From the NCBI RefSeq assembly GCF_900104745.1, contig NZ_LT629732.1, forward strand, positions 62,001 to 126,000: a DNA stretch of 64,000 bases. The letters are read 5' to 3'. Below are positions 18,409 through 28,830 of the stretch, piece after piece; position 1 is the stretch's first letter, and each line of letters starts with the position of its first letter. The position numbers were made by a program, and so were the translations under genes. The notes under the pieces were generated by a model. That model made no database searches. It worked only from the letters and a program-made list of their open reading frames with translations, and had not been told where the DNA came from. This stretch comes from Actinopolymorpha singaporensis. Lineage in GTDB: Bacteria > Actinomycetota > Actinomycetes > Propionibacteriales > Actinopolymorphaceae.

Positions 18409-18535
18409 CGACACCTCGCACCGTCGCGTCCGGGTGCGGCCTACCTGGCTCGTCGGAGGTTTTCGCATCCGCCCCAGGGTAGACAGCGCCGCAGGGAAGC
18501 CGGAGTTGCCCTCGACTTCCCTCTGATTCGGCGAC

Positions 18536-19804
18536 ATGGCACTAAGGAACCGATTCGTGGACATCTTCCAGACCCTCGAATCCGACGTACGCAGCTACTG
18601 CCGAGGATGGCCGGCGACGTTCGATCGGGCTGTCGGCAGCCGTCTGTACGACGAGAGTGGAAGGGCATACCTGGACTTCTTCGCGGGCGCGGGCGTACTC
18701 AACTACGGCCACAACAATCCCGTACTCAAACGAGCCCTGATCGAATACCTGGAACGCGACGGAATCACCCACTCGCTGGACATGAACACCGTGGCGAAGC
18801 GGGATTTCCTGCAGGCGTTGCGCGACCTCGTGCTGAGGCCGCGCAACCTGGACTACAAGGTGATGTTCCCCGGACCGGCGGGTGCCAATGCAGTCGAGGC
18901 CGCGCTGAAGCTCGCCTGCAAGGTGACCGGGCGCCACTCCGTGGTCAGCTTCACCAACGGCTTCCACGGCATGACACTCGGCGCGCTCGCCGTGACGGGC
19001 AACTCGGTGAAGCGCGCCGGCGCGGGCGTACCACTGGCACACACCGCGCCGATGCCCTACGACGGCTACCTCGCGAACTCACCGGACTTCGAACTCCTGA
19101 CCAAGCTGCTGGACGACCGCGGAAGCGGACTCGACCTGCCAGCGGCCTTCATCGTGGAAACGGTGCAGGGAGAAGGCGGACTCAACACGGCCAGGATCGA
19201 GTGGCTCCAGGAACTCGCGGAGCTGTGCAGGCGGCGCGACATCCTGTTGATCGTCGACGACGTGCAGATGGGCTGCGGCCGCACAGGGCCGTTCTTCAGC
19301 TTTGAGATCGCCGGCCTCAGGCCGGACATCGTGTGCCTTTCCAAGGCCATCGGTGGGTACGGGCTGCCGCTCGCGCTGACCCTGTTCAGGCCGGAGCTGG
19401 ACATCTGGACACCCGGGGAGCACAACGGCACTTTCCGCGGCATCAACCCCGCCTTCGTCGCCGCGGCCGAGGCTCTGCGTACCTACTGGCGCGATGACAA
19501 CCTCGAGAAGAGCACGGTGGCGAAGGGCGAGCAGGCCGAAAGAGTCCTGGCCGACGTAGCCGCCGCCCACCCCGGGATCCCGATGCAGGTCAGGGGAAGG
19601 GGTCTCGCGCGCGGCCTGGCCCTGCCCAGCGGAGACCTGGCGGAACGGGTCTGCCGCAACGCGTTCGAGCGCGGACTACTCCTGGAAACCTCCGGTCCCG
19701 AAGGAGAGGTGGTCAAGTTGCTGCCGCCGCTCACCGTGACCGACGACGAACTCGACGAGGGACTGTCGCTGCTCGAGGAGTCCGTGAAGGAAGCATCGAG
19801 GTGA
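18536..19804 (+). CDS. ectB: Diaminobutyrate-2-oxoglutarate transaminase (EctB), orphan
   Basis: A 422-residue class III PLP aminotransferase matching EctB, which converts aspartate semialdehyde and glutamate to 2,4-diaminobutyrate, the first ectoine-specific step. Signature segments are 'LDFFAGAGVLNYGHNNPVL', 'YLERDGITHSLDMNTVAKRD', 'SFTNGFHGMTLGALAVTGN' and 'VETVQGEGGLNTA'. The PLP lysine is K270 in 'CLSKAIGGYG', with D241 binding the pyridinium nitrogen. Neither ectA nor ectC lies nearby. Diaminobutyrate is also a precursor for peptides and siderophores, so the real pathway cannot be told from here. The ATG lacks a strong ribosome-binding site. Confidence 0.9.
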   Translation: MALRNRFVDIFQTLESDVRSYCRGWPATFDRAVGSRLYDESGRAYLDFFAGAGVLNYGHNNPVLKRALIEYLERDGITHSLDMNTVAKRDFLQALRDLVLRPRNLDYKVMFPGPAGANAVEAALKLACKVTGRHSVVSFTNGFHGMTLGALAVTGNSVKRAGAGVPLAHTAPMPYDGYLANSPDFELLTKLLDDRGSGLDLPAAFIVETVQGEGGLNTARIEWLQELAELCRRRDILLIVDDVQMGCGRTGPFFSFEIAGLRPDIVCLSKAIGGYGLPLALTLFRPELDIWTPGEHNGTFRGINPAFVAAAEALRTYWRDDNLEKSTVAKGEQAERVLADVAAAHPGIPMQVRGRGLARGLALPSGDLAERVCRNAFERGLLLETSGPEGEVVKLLPPLTVTDDELDEGLSLLEESVKEASR

Positions 19805-19842
19805 CCGTAGTCGAACTGTCGAGGTCGTCCTCGCGACGGCGG

Positions 19843-22035
19843 TCAGGACGCCCGAACGGCCGGTCCAGGTGGTGCACCAACCTCGCCGGTGCGCCTGAGC
19901 TTGTGCCAACGCAGGCGATTTCCGGTCAGGGCGGTGATGCACGAGTGCAGCAGCACGAGATACATGACCTGCCGGTAGGCCACCTGCTGTAGAGGCAACG
20001 CCCAGAGGCTGCGCAGGTCCTCGCGATCGAGCCGGAAGGCGTAGGCCGCGGATATGGCTTGTACGCCCAACAGCCCTGCCCATACCAGCAGGGTCCGCCA
20101 GGGGTTGTGGGACACCAGCCCGTAGACAGCAGCGATGTCGACCAGTGGTGCGAGCAGTGGGGCCAGAACCTGGAACACGGAGATCAGTGGCAGCCCGACC
20201 CGCCCGAAGCGGCCCGAGGGTCCGCGTTCGATCAGCGAGCGGCGGTGCTTCCAGATCGCCTGCATGGTGCCGTAGCTCCAGCGGTATCTCTGCCGCCACA
20301 GTTGGGTCATCGTGCCCGGCGCCTCCGTCCACGCCAAGGCGTTCTCCTGGTACGCCACGTCCCAGCCGGCGCGGTGGAGCGCCATGGTGATGTCGGTGTC
20401 TTCGGCAAGCGTGTCTTCGGTCATCATCCCGGCATCCCGCAGGGCAGTGCGACGGAACGCTCCGACGGCACCCGGGATGGTGGGCATGCAGCGAAGCAGG
20501 TCGTACATGCGCCGGTCGAGGTTGAAGCCCATGACGTACTCGATGTGCTGCCATTTGCCGATCATGCGATCGCGGTTGCCGACCTTCGCGTTGCCGGCCA
20601 CTGCCCCGACTCGCGGGTTGGCGAAGGGCTGTACCAGGTTGTGCACCGTCGCGGGCTCGAAAACGGTGTCGCCGTCCATCATCACGATCAGCTCGTACGA
20701 AGCCCAGGCGACGCCGGTGTTGAGCGCGGTTGCTTTGCCACTGTTGGGCTGCCGTACGAGCGTGACCCCGGGCAGGCCGAGGGATTTCACGATCTCGGCG
20801 GTGTCGTCGGTCGATCCGTCGTCCACCACGATGATCTCGACCGGATGATTGCTCGCCGCCAGTGAACGCACCGTGTTGGCGATGCACTCGCGTTCGTTGT
20901 ACGCGGGAACCACGACGCTGACCGGTTCGATGACGTCAGGTCCCCAGGAGAAGTCCGGGTCGTTGCGTACGCGGGCGTGGCGCCGGGCAAACACCAGCAT
21001 CATCACAAGCCGGAAGAGCACCAGCAGGCCGGTGACTGCCAGGAGAACGAACAAACCTCGTACGGCCACCTGGGAAAGCTGGACCGCGGCGACGAATGCC
21101 CTGCCCTTCCAGAGCCCGGCGCTGGTGGGGGGATGGTCGAAGCTCTCGGCTCCCATGGCCTTGCTGAGGGTGGTGAACCGGTAGCCTCTGGCCTGCAGTC
21201 TGGGGATCAGCACATCCAGTGCATGGACCGTCTGCGCCACCTTGTCGCCGGATTCGTACATGAGCACCACGGCGCTCCGGCCGGTCGGCTCGGGGACTGG
21301 ACGATTCGCGGCGCCGTGAACGGCGGTGCGTAGCCAGTGCTCGCTGCCGGTGTCGTTCAGGACGGTGAGGTATCCCTTGGACCCAAGGTATTGGACGGCC
21401 GGCCAGGAGAGGTTGTCCAGCCTGCTCGGGACGGACGAATCCGCCGGGCGGACAAGTGAACTGGTGATTCCGGCGGCACCGGCCAGCGCCAGTTGGGAAC
21501 GCGCAAGCTCGCCGTCGATGTCCGCCTTCGAGCCGCGAAGGATATCCGGGCGAGAAAAGGTGTGCAGCCCGACATCTTGTCCTGAATTGACCAGATCACG
21601 GACAACGCCGGGGTACCGAACGGTCAGCTGACCGACGACGAAGAAGGTGCCGTGCACCTTGTGTTTCTTCAGGACCTTGAGAATTTTCGGTGTCCACATC
21701 GGGTCCGGGCCGTCGTCGAAGGTAAGGACGATGGTCTTCTTCGGGACGCGGTACGTACGAACTGTGGATCCGGTCGCGTCGAGGACGGGGCCGCCTCTCA
21801 GGACCTTCTCGGGCACCCAGTCGGAGGCCACCATGTAAGGCAGGTGCTCGGTGGCCGGGACTTTGTGTACGTAGCCGTCGAGGAGAAGAACGCAGAGGAG
21901 GACCGCGAGCAGGAACACCGGGACGATCGGCAGGCGTCGAGCCCTCCCTGGCCGGGACGGCGTCCGGGCGCGACCAGTTCCCTGGTTCGACTTCGGGTTC
22001 GCACGTACCGGCGACTTGCTGCTGGCGTTCACCAT
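19843..22035 (-). CDS. Bifunctional polysaccharide deacetylase / family 2 glycosyltransferase
   Basis: 730 residues. A basic cytoplasmic tail and one helix (about 36-53) lead to an extracellular NodB domain with 'VLTFDDGPDPMWTPKIL' (105-111 catalytic Asp pair). The second metal motif is 'GLHTFSRPDI': His158 is kept but the expected second His is Arg162. A further helix near 320 leads to a cytosolic GT2 domain ('SVVVPAYNERECIANTV', 'VDDGSTDDTAEIV', 'MMDGDTVFEPAT', 'EDTDITMALHRAG', 'QRYRWSYGTM'), a processive-synthase QxxRW pattern, then several helices. It should polymerise a beta-linked polysaccharide and modify it outside. It overlaps the HTH gene by seven bases. Confidence 0.88.
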   Translation of the reverse strand: MVNASSKSPVRANPKSNQGTGRARTPSRPGRARRLPIVPVFLLAVLLCVLLLDGYVHKVPATEHLPYMVASDWVPEKVLRGGPVLDATGSTVRTYRVPKKTIVLTFDDGPDPMWTPKILKVLKKHKVHGTFFVVGQLTVRYPGVVRDLVNSGQDVGLHTFSRPDILRGSKADIDGELARSQLALAGAAGITSSLVRPADSSVPSRLDNLSWPAVQYLGSKGYLTVLNDTGSEHWLRTAVHGAANRPVPEPTGRSAVVLMYESGDKVAQTVHALDVLIPRLQARGYRFTTLSKAMGAESFDHPPTSAGLWKGRAFVAAVQLSQVAVRGLFVLLAVTGLLVLFRLVMMLVFARRHARVRNDPDFSWGPDVIEPVSVVVPAYNERECIANTVRSLAASNHPVEIIVVDDGSTDDTAEIVKSLGLPGVTLVRQPNSGKATALNTGVAWASYELIVMMDGDTVFEPATVHNLVQPFANPRVGAVAGNAKVGNRDRMIGKWQHIEYVMGFNLDRRMYDLLRCMPTIPGAVGAFRRTALRDAGMMTEDTLAEDTDITMALHRAGWDVAYQENALAWTEAPGTMTQLWRQRYRWSYGTMQAIWKHRRSLIERGPSGRFGRVGLPLISVFQVLAPLLAPLVDIAAVYGLVSHNPWRTLLVWAGLLGVQAISAAYAFRLDREDLRSLWALPLQQVAYRQVMYLVLLHSCITALTGNRLRWHKLRRTGEVGAPPGPAVRAS

Positions 22036-22910
22036 CGTCGCGACTGGTCGTACGTCGGCGGGGCATAGTCTTCGGATCCGACGGGGAACGCGGCGTCATC
22101 TGTCCCCGGGCTGTCCGACCACCGGCTGGGAGGCCGTTTCCTGCTCTCTGGCCGGGAACCCCGTCCTGAGGCCGGAGAGCCGGAAGCGGTTGGTGTGGGA
22201 CCTGAGGGTTCGGGGAGGGGCCGGCTCCTTGACTGCCCTCTCCGGTCGGAGCGGTCGGTGGCGGACGAGGTGCGATCCCTCGCTCCAGAACGGACTTCTT
22301 GCATCCGCGCGAGCGACGCGGAGGGGGACGGGGCCGCGGAGGCCCCAGCGGGAGGTGCCGCCCGGCTGGGAGCCATCGGGGTGACTCCAGTGAGGCTGAC
22401 GCCCAGCACGGCCGTGCACGCGGCGCACAGGCCGGCCACAAGGTAGCCGGCGCGCCGAACGTTGCGGGCCCGGCGGCCGGTCGAGTCGACGAAGATCGGA
22501 TCGACAGAGACGTCGACGCCGGTCGCGACGTCGGTCTCCCCTCTGTCCGCATCCTCGCTGGTCTTCTCGGGTCCCCCCACTGCGGCCAGCGCGCGAGGTT
22601 CGGGGACGGACCTGCCGAACGGCTCGACCACGTTGACCGCGTAGACCCGTGCGCTTCCGGTAGCGGGAAGCGACTCCTGCACGTAGGCGACTCCCGACGC
22701 GGTGACAGGCGCCGACTCAAAGATGCGGACGATCTGTGCCAGGTGATCGTCGGTGAACCGGTAGCAGTCGCCGAGCATGGTGAAGGGGACCCTGCGCGCT
22801 GCTGCCTGCTGCTCCAGCCAACCCGGCGCGACTCGGAGGACTTCCGCGGCTTCCTCAGGCGTGTAGACCGTGAGCACCGCGTTCACTCGGCCCCTCGCCC
22901 TGTGTGACAT
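22029..22910 (-). CDS. Membrane-anchored excisionase-like HTH protein
   Basis: 293 residues. An N-terminal MerR/excisionase-type DNA-binding fold ('YTPEEAAEVLRVAPGWLEQQ', 'VPFTMLGDCYRFTDDHLAQI') is followed by an acidic linker, one membrane helix ('AGYLVAGLCAACTAVLGVSL', about residues 154-173) and a long Ser/Pro/Arg-rich extracytoplasmic tail. A cytosolic DNA-binding domain tied to an outside tail suggests surface-to-gene signalling, or simply tethering of the synthase it overlaps. Such HTH genes accompany deacetylase-GT2 fusions in other actinomycetes as far as I recall. No catalytic domain is seen. Confidence 0.65.
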   Translation of the reverse strand: MSHRARGRVNAVLTVYTPEEAAEVLRVAPGWLEQQAAARRVPFTMLGDCYRFTDDHLAQIVRIFESAPVTASGVAYVQESLPATGSARVYAVNVVEPFGRSVPEPRALAAVGGPEKTSEDADRGETDVATGVDVSVDPIFVDSTGRRARNVRRAGYLVAGLCAACTAVLGVSLTGVTPMAPSRAAPPAGASAAPSPSASLARMQEVRSGARDRTSSATDRSDRRGQSRSRPLPEPSGPTPTASGSPASGRGSRPESRKRPPSRWSDSPGTDDAAFPVGSEDYAPPTYDQSRRW

Positions 22911-23484
22911 GCCGGTCGCGCCCGAGCGGCTACGTACGTTTCGAGGTTCTTCATTGGAATAGCCGTATTCGCAAAGTCATTTCCGGATAGCTATGCTTGA
23001 TTCCCTTTCAGGAATACCCAAACTGGCCGGGGGCAAAACTGCCGGAACTCTGCACCGACCAGTTCCGGCCTGGGGCTTTTGGTGCATTGATGCTGTCCCA
23101 GTCAGCCAGTGAATATCCAAGAAGGCGCAGGCCGAGACAACCGTTGCAACTGGTACGAACATCCGCCTCGGGCAGGCGATTGTGCCGGACGAAATCCGTC
23201 AGGCGAGGCGGAGAACAACGGCCAGGAAAACAAAGGTGGACGCGAAACGCGTCGGTCTCCATCACCCAAACGGATAGGCATTCCGTCGACAAGCAATGAG
23301 AGGAAATCGGCGGAGGTGAAAGTGCCCGTTCCGAAGTCGCCGACGGCACCTCCTGCGAGGCCACACGGGTGGAGAATTTCAGTGAGCAGGTACGGGGAGA
23401 TTCGGATAAGCGCCGTAAGGGTTCGGACGCGCCGCTCTACCGACTGGCCGTTCCGTCGTGCACCCTCGGCCAGCCGTCCGCTCC

Positions 23485-23610
23485 TCAGGTGAGGACGTCC
23501 ATCATCAGCGCTCGCGGCGCCGGGCTCGAGAGCGGGTTTCCGGCCGGGTCGCGCAGCGGGTAGGCGTGGTAGAAGAGCACGTCGGTACGCCGCCCGTCGA
23601 CCGTCGCCTG
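23485..23610 (-). pseudogene. Short C-terminal gene fragment abutting the tRNA-Gln copy
   Basis: A minus-strand frame reads 'VDGRRTDVLFYHAYPLRDPA' and ends 'RALMMDVLT' at a stop. It has ordinary actinobacterial codon use and a glycoside-hydrolase-like 'YHAY' turn. Coding sense is lost at the tRNA fragment, where a stop enters the frame. It is probably the tail of a gene cut by integration or deletion at that point; the family is uncertain. Confidence 0.3.
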
Positions 23611-23640
23611 GGACTCGGACCCCCATCATCGGATCCAAAA
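23611..23640 (-). repeat. Partial tRNA-Gln copy (candidate attachment site)
   Basis: These 30 bases match positions 28771-28800 inside the tRNA-Gln gene at 28 of 30 positions, in the same orientation. They cover the anticodon loop to the T loop, the part commonly used as an integrase crossover site. The two copies are 5,160 bases apart. Such partial tRNA copies normally mark the far end of an integrated element. Confidence 0.7.
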
Positions 23641-23844
23641 GGGCGATGAGCGGCTCCAACACCGTGCTGACCTGCGACGATGCGTCCGCCATGGCACCGA
23701 TAGGCGAGAGGTCGCATCGTCCGAGACCGGGACCAAAAGCTGATTTTGTGGCAGGCTCCGGGGCCATGCCAGGAATCGCGACGATCGGAACGCGGTGTGG
23801 CCGCGGCCACACACGCTTGCCTACCCCGAGCCGCTGGAACAGGG

Positions 23845-24078
23845 GTGTTCGAGGTTGGCCATGAGCTTGCCTTCTACTCAGCATGTGAATGCGGCGTGTT
23901 CCACTTCGTTGTCATCTGGGCCGGCGACAGGACCCGAGTCATGCAGACTGGCGGCCCTGAGCTCGCGCAGCGACTCGAGGATCAGGGGTGGCCAGAAGAG
24001 ATCTACGCGGATGAGAACGGGACCTTCTTCTACAAGGTGGTCCCATCCCTGGATGTCGCCATGTTCATGTCGGGCTAG
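23845..24078 (+). CDS. Hypothetical small protein
   Basis: About 77 residues from a GTG start: 'HELAFYSACECGVFHFVVIW' then 'GGPELAQRLEDQGWPEEIYA' and 'NGTFFYKVVPSLDVAMFMSG'. The mix of hydrophobic strands and charged turns looks like a real small alpha/beta protein, with a CxC near the N-terminus. The family is not recognised. The start is uncertain and the ribosome-binding site weak (CAGGGG). It may be a partial gene, given its place beside the island boundary. Confidence 0.45.
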   Translation: MFEVGHELAFYSACECGVFHFVVIWAGDRTRVMQTGGPELAQRLEDQGWPEEIYADENGTFFYKVVPSLDVAMFMSG

Positions 24079-24268
24079 TCTCCGCCGCCGCCTCGAACTC
24101 GGCCGGCGGGGTCAGCTCCGCAGGTGCCACAGGTCCAGGAGTGGGACGAGGACACGTTCCCTCTGTAGCTACTTCACTTCGGTCCATTGGCCGCGTTCCT
24201 TGCTGGCGAACCCCGGGGCAGTGAGTTCGTGCAGGCGCGTTGCCGTCCACTGCGTAAGGTAAGACGGG

Positions 24269-24733
24269 CTACGACCGCGGGTCGTCGACCTTGATTTTGT
24301 CTCCGGTGTTGGAGACGAAGACGATCAGGAGCTTGGCCGGTTCGGTCCGGCTGGTGTTCTCGGTGAGGATGTGGTGGGCGCCCGGCGGCTCGACCCAGTT
24401 TTCGCCTTGGTGGTAGGCGTGCACGGGCTTGCCGGCAAGTTCGCTGCGCACGGTGCCTTCGAGCACGTAGGCGTAGACGAACGCCTCGCCGTGCCGGTGC
24501 GGCTTCGCACGTGCGTTGGGCGGGAAGGCGACGACCGCCGAGGTGAATGTCTTGCCCTTCACGTCCGGGAGGCTCTGCTTGAGCAGTGGCGTGAGGGTTT
24601 CGGTGGGGTGCTTCGATGTCGCGGCCGCGGTCGGCGTCCTGGCGTTGGCAGGCTGGTCGGCGGTGGAGCAGCCCGTGGCCAAGGTCAGCGTAGCGACGGC
24701 CAGTAGGCCGCCGGCGATCCGCATTCCGATCAT
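24269..24733 (-). CDS. Cupin-domain lipoprotein
   Basis: 154 residues. An N-terminal signal ('GGLLAVATLTLATGCSTADQ') with Cys after LATG suggests a lipoprotein, though Ala at -3 is a weak lipobox match. The rest is a single cupin barrel: 'AKPHRHGEAFVYAYVLEGTV' and 'GENWVEPPGAHHILTENTS' supply the metal-binding His residues. Similar secreted cupins follow oxidoreductases in ECF41-controlled operons. It begins 14 bases after the oxidoreductase stop, so they are one transcript. It is probably a metal-dependent enzyme or binding protein outside the membrane. Confidence 0.8.
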   Translation of the reverse strand: MIGMRIAGGLLAVATLTLATGCSTADQPANARTPTAAATSKHPTETLTPLLKQSLPDVKGKTFTSAVVAFPPNARAKPHRHGEAFVYAYVLEGTVRSELAGKPVHAYHQGENWVEPPGAHHILTENTSRTEPAKLLIVFVSNTGDKIKVDDPRS

Positions 24734-24747
24734 GATTGGTCTCCTGC

Positions 24748-25668
24748 TCAGCCTTCCGTGACGCCGATGATCGTCTTGCCGGGGGTGCGCGTGGCAGGGG
24801 CGAACGCGGCGGCCGTTTCGGCGAGCGGCCGTACCTCGCCGACGACCGGTTTGAGTCGGCCGTCCCTCACCCGTGTGACGAGCTCGGAGAGCCGCACGCG
24901 GTCGGGCTCGACGACGAAGAAGACCGCGCGCCCGTCCTTGGGCCGGGCCTTGGGCGGCAAGGTGATGCTCACAAGCGTTCCCCCGGCCCGTACCACCGTG
25001 GCGGATCGTTCGAGGATGTCTCCGCCGATCACATCGAACACGACGTCAACCTCGGCGCTGTCCTCCAGCTTCTCCGCCTGCAGGTCCAGGAACATGTCGG
25101 CGCCCAACGCAAGCACCTGGTCACGGTCGGCGGCCCGTCCGGTGCCGATGACACGTGCGCCGGCCTCGCGGGCGAGCTGTACCGCGATCGAGCCGACCCC
25201 GCCCCCGGCGCCGTTGATCAGCACGGTCTGGCCCGCCGCCAGGCGGCCGTGGTCGAACAGGCCCTGCCATGCGGTAAGTCCGGAGATCGGCAACGCGGCA
25301 GCCAGGGTATGGTCGACGTCCGCCGGCAGCGGCGCGAGATTGCGGGCTTCGACAGCGCAGTATTCGGCGAGCGAGCCGTTGCGGGCCCAGTCGGCCATGC
25401 CGAACACCCGCTGGCCGACACTCACGCCGGTCGTGCCGAACCCCAACTCTTCGACGACACCCGACAACTCGTGTCCGGGCACGCTCGGCGTCCGGTCGCG
25501 GCCCGCGCGATCGGTCCACGTGGCCGGCCAGTCCAGCTCTCCACGGGTGAAGCCCGCGGCGTGCACCCGCACGATGACGTCATTCTCGGCCGCGTGGGGG
25601 TAGGGCATGTCCGTCAGCGACAGCCCGCCGAGACCGGCTTCACGGTCTCGGACAGTGATGGCTTGCAT
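24748..25668 (-). CDS. NADP-dependent quinone oxidoreductase-like (MDR family)
   Basis: A 306-residue zinc-free medium-chain dehydrogenase. The N-terminal GroES-like part has 'VIVRVHAAGFTRGELDWP' and 'PSVPGHELSGVVEELG'; the nucleotide-binding motif is 'TVLINGAGGGVGSIAVQLAR' with the alternative AxxGxxG loop used by quinone reductases. It lacks the structural-zinc cysteines of alcohol dehydrogenases. It lies downstream of an ECF41 sigma gene, and oxidoreductases are one of the three COE classes ECF41 factors control. A shared 25-bp element sits in the gap before it. Confidence 0.88.
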   Translation of the reverse strand: MQAITVRDREAGLGGLSLTDMPYPHAAENDVIVRVHAAGFTRGELDWPATWTDRAGRDRTPSVPGHELSGVVEELGFGTTGVSVGQRVFGMADWARNGSLAEYCAVEARNLAPLPADVDHTLAAALPISGLTAWQGLFDHGRLAAGQTVLINGAGGGVGSIAVQLAREAGARVIGTGRAADRDQVLALGADMFLDLQAEKLEDSAEVDVVFDVIGGDILERSATVVRAGGTLVSITLPPKARPKDGRAVFFVVEPDRVRLSELVTRVRDGRLKPVVGEVRPLAETAAAFAPATRTPGKTIIGVTEG

Positions 25669-25834
25669 AAATGTCCTTACTGGGGAAGGGAGCGCTCGAG
25701 CGCGCAGCCCGCTCACACGCAGGACTCAGCGCGGCTCGTCGTCGGAGGAACGCAGCAGGTGGACGCATGCCGTCCGGCATGATCGATCTCATCTGCTCAC
25801 GAGCGCGCGCTCCTTCGTCTGTCCCGTTTTGGTT

Positions 25835-25859
25835 CTCATCAGGGAGACGAGGCAGCCCC
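25835..25859 (-). promoter_or_regulatory. Candidate sigma-factor-dependent promoter element, copy 2
   Basis: On the minus strand this reads GGGGCTGCCTCGTC, three variable bases, then CTGATGAG, matching the element at 5933-5957 at 19 of 25 positions. It lies between the sigma-factor stop and the oxidoreductase start, 167 bases before the latter. A second shared stretch, CTCGTGAGCAG, occurs a little further on. Confidence 0.35.
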
Positions 25860-25874
25860 TCGGGATGTGACGGC

Positions 25875-26765
25875 TCAGACGTGAGAAAGCTTGTCCGGGT
25901 TGATGACCCTGCGGTACGTGGTGATCAGACCGTCTGCGATCTCCAGCGTGTCCACGGAGTAGACACGGCCCTCCCGGCGGAACACCAGGGCGAGCTCGCC
26001 GCCGACCTCGACGAGATCGATGCGGTCCGGACGCCACTGGCGTCCCACGCGCACCATTACCTCAGCGACACGCTCCCCACCATGGATGAGCTTGCGCGCC
26101 GCGAGGGCCTCGCCGCCGCCGTCGGTGACGTAGACGACGTCCGGGTGTAACAGCCTGACCAGGCCAGCCAAATCCCCCACCTCGTAGGCGGCGCGAAAGG
26201 CCGCCAGCACACGTTCACGCTCCGCCTTCGACGCCTGCGGCGAAGACTGCTTCGCCTTGGCCACCCGCCGCCGCGCCCGCGAGGCCAGCTGCCGGGCACC
26301 CGGCACCGAGACATCCAGTACTCCGGCGATCCGGTCGAACTCAAGGCCGAACACATCGTGCAGCACGAAGGCCACCCGCTCCGGCGGACTCAACTCCTCC
26401 ATGATCAGGAGCATCGCCGTGCCGACGGCCTCATCCACGAGGACCGGCTCGGATGCGTCCGGCCCAGTCAGCAGCGGCTCCGGCAGCCACGGCCCGACAT
26501 AGGTCTCCCGGCGGAAACGGGCACTCTTCAGAATGTCGTACGACCGCCGCGCGGCCACCGTCACCAGCCAGGCCCGCAGATCATCGACGTCCTGCAGATC
26601 TGTTCCGGCCGCCCGCAGCCACACATCCTGGGTCACGTCCTCGGCATCGGCCACCCCGCCCAGCAGCCGGTAGGCCACACCGAAAACCGCGGGCCGGTGC
26701 CTCTCCCATTCGGCTGCGAGCGTGTCCTCCTGCTCACACCGTCCAGGCACGCGCCCGTCGTCCAT
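25875..26765 (-). CDS. ECF41-type RNA polymerase sigma factor (SigJ family)
   Basis: 296 residues. Regions 2 ('VFGVAYRLLGGVADAEDVTQ') and 4 ('AFVLHDVFGLEFDRIAGVLD') are joined by the linker motif WLPEP at 93-97; the SnoaL-like extension has DGGG at 215-218 and NPDKL near the C-terminus. All three ECF41 hallmarks are exact. The ATG follows GGAGGAGG by ten bases and is preferred over a TTG seven codons upstream. No anti-sigma gene is present, as is usual for this group. The downstream oxidoreductase-cupin pair is the likely regulon. Confidence 0.9.
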   Translation of the reverse strand: MDDGRVPGRCEQEDTLAAEWERHRPAVFGVAYRLLGGVADAEDVTQDVWLRAAGTDLQDVDDLRAWLVTVAARRSYDILKSARFRRETYVGPWLPEPLLTGPDASEPVLVDEAVGTAMLLIMEELSPPERVAFVLHDVFGLEFDRIAGVLDVSVPGARQLASRARRRVAKAKQSSPQASKAERERVLAAFRAAYEVGDLAGLVRLLHPDVVYVTDGGGEALAARKLIHGGERVAEVMVRVGRQWRPDRIDLVEVGGELALVFRREGRVYSVDTLEIADGLITTYRRVINPDKLSHV

Positions 26766-27293
26766 ACAGAACGCAACCTCCTCCAACTTGCGAATCCAGC
26801 GTAGTCATCCGAGCTCGGGATCTACGCAGACAGGCCCGGAAGCGAGCCGGCGTGCGTTCTTCCGGCCCAGCTCGACGCGGAGACGGGTCAGGTGACTGAT
26901 GTGAGCCTTGGTAGGTGAGTAGATGGAGAGGTTTCTCCAGGATCCCCCCGGGGCGGCTCACCCTCCGGCGATGACGGACCACAGGGCTCGGAGGCGGTGT
27001 TGGCGCTCGGGGGCAAGGTACTGACTGGACCACGAACACCTTTGTTCAGCCTGTGTCGACCCGAGATGCATGCTGGATCGGCGCCTTCGTCGCCGCCCTG
27101 GGCCGGCACGGACTGGTCGGTCTCTACCGGAAAAGTGCGGACGAGGCCAACGACTAGCGGGGGGTCGGTCAGGCTCGTCGAAGGGGCAGGGAACAGGTCG
27201 CATGGGGACGGCGGTGACTTCGTGGGTCGGTCTCGGGCTCATGGGCGCACCCGCGCGTCTGGGGCTTTGTCGCTCGGGCGTAGCGTCGCATCT
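26766..27293. other. Intergenic region without a visible gene
   Basis: This lies between two divergent genes (sigma factor and MASE1 protein), so it should hold both promoters. I see no frame with clear coding character and no strong repeat. Confidence 0.5.
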
Positions 27294-28361
27294 ATGGCGA
27301 AGGGCCAGCCCTCTCGTCGGCGTCACCTGTGGACCGTGCTTGCGATCATTGCGACCGGGGCGGCTTATCTGCTGGCGGCGCAGCCCGGTGTACTCAAGAG
27401 GCTCGGCGAGTCGGGCAAGGCGACCCTTGTGTGGCCGGCAAGCGGGGTTGCCCTGGCGGCCCTTCTGATCTTCAGGCTGCGGGCCTTGCCCGGAGTTGCG
27501 TTGGGGGCCTTTGTGGCCACCTGGGTGGCATTCGACCGGCCCCTGTTGGTCGCGCTGGGGATAGCGGTCGAGGCCACGGTTGCGGCCCTGCTTGCCTACG
27601 CTCTGCTGCGTCGGGCGGGCTTCCGGAACGATCTTGCCCGGCTGCGTGACGCCGTGGCGCTGGTGGTGTGCGGTGCGGGGGCTGGCATGCTGACCGGCGC
27701 GGCCATCCGCAGCGGCGTCCTGGTGCTGGCCGGCATCGAGCCGGCCCGTGAGTACGGGGCGGTGATGCTTCGTGGTTGGCTCGGGTCCGCACTCGGAATC
27801 CTGGTTGTCACGCCGTTCCTTCTGGTGCTCTACAGAATCTCGCTGCGTCGGGCGCTTCCTGACGTGTGGCGCCTGGTGGAGGCCGTCGGCCTGCTTGTGT
27901 GCACGCTGGGCGTGACATGGTGGGTGATCACGGGAAGCACCGGCGGGCAAGAGCTGTTCCTGGTCTTCCCGCTTCTGATCTGGGCCGCGTGGCGGTTCCA
28001 GCTCGAGGGTGCCGCACCCTGCATCGTCGTCGTTTCGGTTGTCACTGTCTACGCGACGGTGAGGGGTCTCGGTCCGTTCAACGGGACCGATCCACAGGCG
28101 GCGCTGATGACAGCCCAGACGTTCGTCGCCGCAACCACCCTTGCCACCCTCTTCCTCGCCGTCGCGGTGACCGAACGCAACGATGCCCGCGACGAGATGG
28201 ATCTGGCCGCCCGCGAGCTCGTGAGAGCGGTGAATATCCTCGGCGAGCGCCTACGACCGGACAAGACCATCAGCGCCGACTCTGGTGAAGCAGCACCGGA
28301 GCCCCCCGATCCGCGCACCCGCGTACGCCGCGAACGTATCCAACCTCCACCGGATGGATGA
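27294..28361 (+). CDS. MASE1-domain integral membrane protein without output domain
   Basis: 355 residues with about eight membrane helices. The MASE1 signature is clear: 'TLVWPASGVALAALLIFRLR', 'LPGVALGAFVATWVAFDRPL', 'RLRDAVALVVCGAGAGMLTG', 'GWLGSALGILVVTPFLLVLY'. MASE1 is normally an N-terminal sensor fused to GGDEF, kinase or PAS domains. Here only about 60 residues follow the last helix: a short helix ('DLAARELVRAVNILGERLRP') and a disordered Pro/Arg tail. It is either a natural short form or has lost its output domain. The start chosen is the ATG before the first helix; earlier in-frame codons have no coding bias. Confidence 0.8.
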   Translation: MAKGQPSRRRHLWTVLAIIATGAAYLLAAQPGVLKRLGESGKATLVWPASGVALAALLIFRLRALPGVALGAFVATWVAFDRPLLVALGIAVEATVAALLAYALLRRAGFRNDLARLRDAVALVVCGAGAGMLTGAAIRSGVLVLAGIEPAREYGAVMLRGWLGSALGILVVTPFLLVLYRISLRRALPDVWRLVEAVGLLVCTLGVTWWVITGSTGGQELFLVFPLLIWAAWRFQLEGAAPCIVVVSVVTVYATVRGLGPFNGTDPQAALMTAQTFVAATTLATLFLAVAVTERNDARDEMDLAARELVRAVNILGERLRPDKTISADSGEAAPEPPDPRTRVRRERIQPPPDG

Positions 28362-28759
28362 CTTGCCTGACCCGCACGGGAACGCGGCGGGGCCGATTGA
28401 AGGGCCGGAGGGTTTGGCCGGTGTCCTGGCTTGGTCCGGGAGAGTGGCAGCCCGTAGCCTCGTCCGGCGCGGTGGGCAGCTTGGCTGCCTGCCGGTAACC
28501 GCCCACCGTGGACCGCCGCTCTTGGGGTCCCGGGCCAAGCGAGGCGGCTGAAGCCTCCGGGCCGGCACGTCGGCAGGCGGCGGGTACGGCGGAGGTCTTC
28601 GCCGCTGTTGTCGAGGACCAGGCCGAGGAGCCTGGACCGCGTGGTGCGGCGGTGCCTGTTAGCAAGGGTGTTAGCAATCGTCAGGTTGAGCATGGCCGCC
28701 GACTCGCCTCGGCCCCTTCTGGGACGTTGGTGCTGGTCAGGGGCCGTTTCTGTGGCTTG
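28362..28759. other. Intergenic region before tRNA-Gln
   Basis: No gene or strong repeat is seen. If the island hypothesis holds, this would be its right inner end, adjoining the 3' end of the tRNA. Confidence 0.4.
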
Positions 28760-28830
28760 CTGGGGTGGGAGGACTCGAACCCCCATCATCAGATCCAAAA
28801 TCTGAGGTCTTGCCCTTAGACGACACCCCA
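28760..28830 (-). tRNA. tRNA-Gln (anticodon TTG)
   Basis: A 71-base cloverleaf on the minus strand. Acceptor TGGGGTG pairs with CACCCCA; the D arm is GTCT-AAGGGCA-AGAC; the anticodon arm is TCAGA-TTTTGGA-TCTGA with anticodon TTG; the variable loop has four bases; the T arm is GGGGG-TTCGAGT-CCTCC, with one G-T pair. The discriminator is G and CCA is not encoded. Anticodon TTG reads CAA and, by wobble, CAG. Confidence 0.95.

Follow-up and report, generated by a model that had tools for sequence, protein, structure and literature searches.

The window, i.e. the whole stretch of 64,000 nucleotides analysed here (G000:C1:62001-126000), belongs to a single-contig genome of 6.40 Mb. The comparison set consisted of this one strain of the host species (G000) and five congeners (G001-G005), among which the nearest named relatives, judged by ProRS, are Actinopolymorpha rutila (G004) and A. 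pittospori (G003). A tRNA-Gln gene and the sequences lying to its left in the window comprise the following features.

18493..28758, no strand: whole variable region, from tRNA-Gln to the next segment in common with the G005 site
19804..23612, minus strand: strain-variable block common to G004, made up of the GH43 stump, an HTH gene (22029-22910) and a deacetylase-glycosyltransferase gene (19843-22035)
23437..23611, minus strand: stump of a GH43 glycosidase gene (C-terminal part), which meets the core copy at a presumed deletion scar (junction 23611/23612, 2-bp CC microhomology)
23611..23640, minus strand: truncated displaced copy of the tRNA-Gln 3' half (putative attR core; 28/30 identical, last 12 bp of the tRNA absent)
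23641..23683, minus strand: putative element-side arm of attR, 43 bp, recurring beside tRNA-Gln core copies in the genus
24269..24733, minus strand: cupin lipoprotein gene (PF07883; paralogue at 3.69 Mb, 88%)
24748..25716, minus strand: zinc-binding-type quinone oxidoreductase gene (PF00107/PF13602, TIGR02824; paralogue at 3.68 Mb, 91%), probably starting at an ATG near 25670
25846..25872, minus strand: candidate ECF41-type promoter CGTCACA-N16-CGTC upstream of the oxidoreductase-cupin pair, one mismatch to TGTCACA-n16-CGTC
25875..26786, minus strand: ECF41/SigJ-type sigma factor gene with a SnoaL-like C-terminal domain (PF04542, PF08281, PF12680; NF007214 SigJ above cut-off)
26997..28361, plus strand: MASE1 membrane-sensor gene without an output domain (PF05231, 4e-42)
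28401..28568, plus strand: truncated member of a dispersed palindromic repeat family (unit length about 355 bp; complete at, e.g., L149 301-655)
28657..28676, minus strand: candidate integrase site of the arm type, TGCTAACA-CCCT-TGCTAACA, located 82 bp beyond the tRNA 3' end
28759..28830, minus strand: tRNA-Gln(TTG), the putative integration target (ARAGORN, Rfam agrees), complete and kept at the putative attL end

Direct sequence comparison bore out the same-orientation repeat reported in the initial annotation: on the plus strand, positions 28771-28800 read GGACTCGAACCCCCATCATCAGATCCAAAA and positions 23611-23640 read GGACTCGGACCCCCATCATCGGATCCAAAA, with 28 of the 30 bases identical. The copy spans the sequence between anticodon loop and T-arm, leaving out the final 12 bp of the tRNA. 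The broken minus-strand gene tail that had been placed beside it is the GH43 stump, whose intact counterpart is present in G004 (L012 12416-13525; PF04616, 1e-32), and the gene calls made at that stage (cupin, oxidoreductase, sigma factor, MASE1) are upheld by PF07883, PF00107/PF13602, the SigJ model and PF05231, respectively. In Rfam searches with the window and the dispersed repeat, the tRNA was the sole match. A search of the whole 6.4-Mb genome of G000 returned the two window copies and one more at 2.064 Mb, and its reversed-pattern control returned none.

When the surroundings of the copy were used as a query, the matches split exactly at 23611/23612. The right part (23612-23683, core plus 43 bases) recurs in G000 at 2.06 Mb and in G001, G002, G003 and G004, while the left part (23489-23612) matches the GH43 gene of G003 and G004 at 96-98%. 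Identity over the arm and core together (71-74 bp) amounts to 88% for the 2.06-Mb site of G000, 83% for G002, 84% for G003, 78-81% for G004 and 79% for G001. The recurrence of this 43-bp flank beside copies of the tRNA-Gln 3' half indicates that the copy is a recombination end (attR arm plus core), and the sharp split indicates that a core copy with its conserved arm became joined to an unrelated gene. Since the copy falls in an open frame, it might be seen as a chance or functionless likeness of a coding stretch to a tRNA, but a 30-mer with up to two mismatches is, by our estimate, expected only about 5e-8 times on both strands of a 6.4-Mb genome, and other loci show the same core linked to the conserved arm. 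The probability of such a coincidence is negligible, and the recurrences of arm plus core had already refuted it.

Further arm or arm-plus-core copies were observed away from tRNA genes at L019, L020, L022 and L023 (G003, G004), some of them near integrase fragments. At L018 9500-10717 (G001) an integrase gene, with a probable frameshift near its N terminus, adjoins tRNA-Met, and a tRNA-Gln-type arm with a truncated core lies inverted just past the integrase end.

Comparing the tRNA-Gln locus among relatives, as the initial annotation had suggested, revealed both an uninterrupted and an occupied site. In G005 the tRNA is directly followed by an alcohol dehydrogenase gene and then by sequence collinear with the window from 18492 down to about 4500; homology with the window ends exactly at the tRNA 3' end (window 28759 aligns to L017 3082, and 18492 to L017 4403). 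The region between these shared segments thus measures 1.3 kb in G005 and 10.3 kb in the window. In G002 a 12-kb insert separates tRNA-Gln from a full 42-bp core (L013 14708-14749), 100% identical to the tRNA 3' half at window 28759-28800 and joined to the arm, after which comes the same dehydrogenase as in G005 (92% over 1.1 kb). A tyrosine-integrase gene, whose N- and C-terminal parts are fused across an internal deletion, lies about 150 bp past the tRNA-Gln of G002. In G004, what is left within about 440 bp of tRNA-Gln is a relic of the integrase N terminus and an arm whose core is truncated. At 25 of 30 loci of the order, relatives of the G002 integrase have a tRNA gene (Lys, Thr, Met or Arg) as their immediate neighbour; in a phage search with this integrase all matches were below 60% identity, with 26-30% among the matches listed. 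A literature search on Actinopolymorpha integrative elements found none.

The G002 insert carries its own cargo (L013 3297-10834), namely large NTPases (NPHP3_N, NACHT) and a protein of 1001 aa that has an ArgRS N-terminal domain. A plasmid search with the insert matched the ArgRS-like stretch only, for which similar DNA was found on Microbacterium and Tsukamurella plasmids.

Taken together, the orientation of the core copy, its conserved arm, the uninterrupted and occupied sites of congeners, and the integrase remnants of a tRNA-targeting family found there argue for a decayed integrative element (genomic island) that entered the tRNA-Gln 3' half at this site through site-specific recombination by a tyrosine integrase; we give this reading a probability of about 0.87. 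The core used for integration would begin in the anticodon loop and continue up to the tRNA 3' end, whereby the element would restore the tRNA at one end (28759-28830) and move the original 3' half to the other (23611-23640). The integrase would later have been lost in the window lineage, and a deletion would have brought the downstream GH43 gene up against the core copy at a point 12 bp before the end of the core. The 2-bp CC overlap at which the core copy meets GH43 suggests that this deletion removed the native flank together with the terminal 12 bp of the core and the greater part of GH43. With the integrase lost and the core cut, excision is no longer expected. The window thus represents a third state, in which the tRNA end and one arm-repeat pair are kept, the integrase is gone and the far end is cut inside the core. 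This is an ordinary kind of event, unusually well documented by relatives: uninterrupted, occupied and eroded states within one genus show a tRNA-Gln hotspot gaining cargo and then losing its machinery.

Several observations count against the island reading. No integrase or excisionase trace was found within the window, and a single strain of the species was compared. The initial annotation was right to call the segment stabilised and devoid of an integrase; as the latter is missing from the window, with remnants at the same site in G002 and G004, we classify the locus as a decayed island, not an active element. At the left end, neither the outer 12 bp of the core nor the dehydrogenase expected downstream is present. 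In G003 the sequence beyond the tRNA remains alignable to the window over about 100 bp (79%); some of this flank might accordingly belong to the host. The GC profile says nothing for or against foreignness, as GC is lower across the entire left flank than across the right one and the segment is not distinctive relative to the left flank.

The flank next to the tRNA also holds the candidate arm-type site. In 10 of 31 loci, the window among them, the sequence immediately 3' of the tRNA contains exact 8-mer repeats with a 12-bp period, and none were found in the same 31 loci at other periods from 9 to 19; the G002 insert has such repeat pairs at both ends. Judged from their sequence and placement, these pairs may be arm-type integrase sites, in which case they would offer an easy way to recognise relics left by this integrase family. 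A further point against the island reading is that the window repeat is TGCTAACA, not TGTCAATG, and lies at +82, not at about +50.

The left boundary requires correction. It is best read not as an att junction but as a deletion scar within the core, joined to GH43. The tRNA-Gln gene and its partial copy do stand as the ends of the 5.2-kb island proposed initially, but the variable region beside tRNA-Gln reaches to about 18493, i.e. about 10.3 kb. Its left part, the block at 19804..23612, is 96.8% identical to G004 over 3.8 kb, and four-fold-site identity to G004 is 0.97 for the deacetylase-glycosyltransferase gene versus 0.83 for the flanking ProRS gene, from which we conclude that this block also moved recently. 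Direct reading of the sequences places a TGA in the GH43 stump of the window where G003 has a TGG codon.

The third core copy of G000 (L021 9573-10734, at 2.06 Mb) lies far from tRNA genes and consists of the arm and the full core, followed by the dehydrogenase found beside tRNA-Gln in G005 and G002. The core copy of the window might have come as a pre-existing remnant, through recombination between dispersed attR-like copies that shuffled the tRNA-Gln flank with this locus, where arm, core and a G005-type dehydrogenase follow one another on the opposite strand. We consider such shuffling quite improbable: the 2.06-Mb arm is merely 88% identical to that of the window, and four-fold-site identity to G005 is 0.93 for the dehydrogenase versus 0.80 for ProRS (G000 against G005), which together suggest a separate import rather than one inversion. 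It is conceivable, though doubtful, that imprecise excision from tRNA-Gln captured the host dehydrogenase, which is now found attached to a full arm-plus-core end at 2.06 Mb; if so, such elements may carry chromosomal genes adjoining their site to non-tRNA locations.

One part of the cargo is the sigma factor with the two genes next to it. The sigma factor has SigJ as its best NCBIfam model, is 93% identical (aa) to its G003 counterpart and combines sigma2-sigma4 with a SnoaL_2-like C-terminal extension, as in the ECF41 group, whose SnoaL-like tails restrain the sigma factor (PMC8999054). ECF41 factors recognize the promoter signature TGTCACA-n16-CGTC, and in two organisms the neighbouring enzyme gene was the only detectable target (PMC3426412). 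The G003 counterpart of the window promoter, TGTCACG-N16-CGTC, also has one mismatch, against a background rate of about 10 motifs per Mb-strand. Judging by these motifs, the sigma factor probably drives the oxidoreductase-cupin promoter. The system resembles ECF41 factors with an oxidoreductase target (PMC3426412) in its SnoaL-like domain, adjoining oxidoreductase and near-consensus promoter, and in that no anti-sigma gene was noticed; it differs in that its oxidoreductase is of the zinc-dehydrogenase type, outside the Pfam types listed there, and in that the unit adds a cupin lipoprotein and sits in an island.

The complete unit (24212-26947) forms one contiguous block in G003, 90-93% identical, whereas the chromosome segment beside tRNA-Gln is only 75-78% identical between G000 and G003; relative to the backbone, this cargo is therefore foreign. 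The self-contained regulon envisaged in the initial annotation is supported for the sigma factor, oxidoreductase and cupin genes by the promoter match and the conserved unit in G003, and can be regarded as a portable ECF41 regulatory unit tied to the tRNA-Gln hotspot. MASE1 is a separate acquisition with its own paralogue (85%) at 1.976 Mb. Both MASE1 copies have the dispersed repeat beside them. Full copies of this repeat have sharp ends and are strongly palindromic (fold z about -7.6); it gave 13 matches in G000 and 18 in G003, occurs in each of the six genus members as well as in one further genus of the family, and showed no Rfam family match and no obvious target-site duplication.

The cargo is missing from tRNA-Gln in all five congeners examined and resembles other genomic places more closely than the backbone does, which agrees with the accessory character originally assigned to it. 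It is a mosaic drawn from the genus gene pool, and may have entered in one piece with the element. Alternatively, the core copy could be a true relic of a tRNA-Gln element around which the cargo was put together afterwards, the region being permissive and the recombination homologous or illegitimate. The cargo pieces differ in their nearest relatives and their paralogues lie apart (at 1.98 Mb for MASE1 and at 3.68-3.69 Mb for oxidoreductase and cupin), the repeat adjoins both MASE1 copies, and the neighbouring GH43 block is also recently shared; the entire cargo nevertheless lies between the two ends, and its ECF41-oxidoreductase-cupin part is a single unit in G003. Later assembly is hence a genuine possibility, though one that we tend to doubt.

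In elements of the pSAM2 and SLP1 type, the core extends from the anticodon loop to the tRNA 3' end, the tRNA is restored at one end, and a tyrosine integrase gene lies near the tRNA, with arm sites beside the core. The decayed tRNA-Gln island shares with them, and with tRNA islands in general, the core extent, the tRNA restored at one end, an integrase near the tRNA (in relatives) and arm sites. The tRNA 3'-end direct repeat at the far boundary is likewise present, at 28/30 with the last 12 bp of the core deleted in the window and as the full 42 bp in G002. Unlike those elements, neither AICE replication genes nor FtsK-like transfer genes were seen among the Pfam-scanned genes of the window and the G002 insert, the copy in the window lacks an integrase and its attR carries a deletion, and the gene of this integrase family starts beside the tRNA and reads away from it. 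A close counterpart is the tRNA-Gln element of G002, which has the same site, core and arm family, but differs in its size (12 kb), its NACHT/large NTPase/ArgRS-N-terminal-domain cargo, its full core copy and its integrase remnant.
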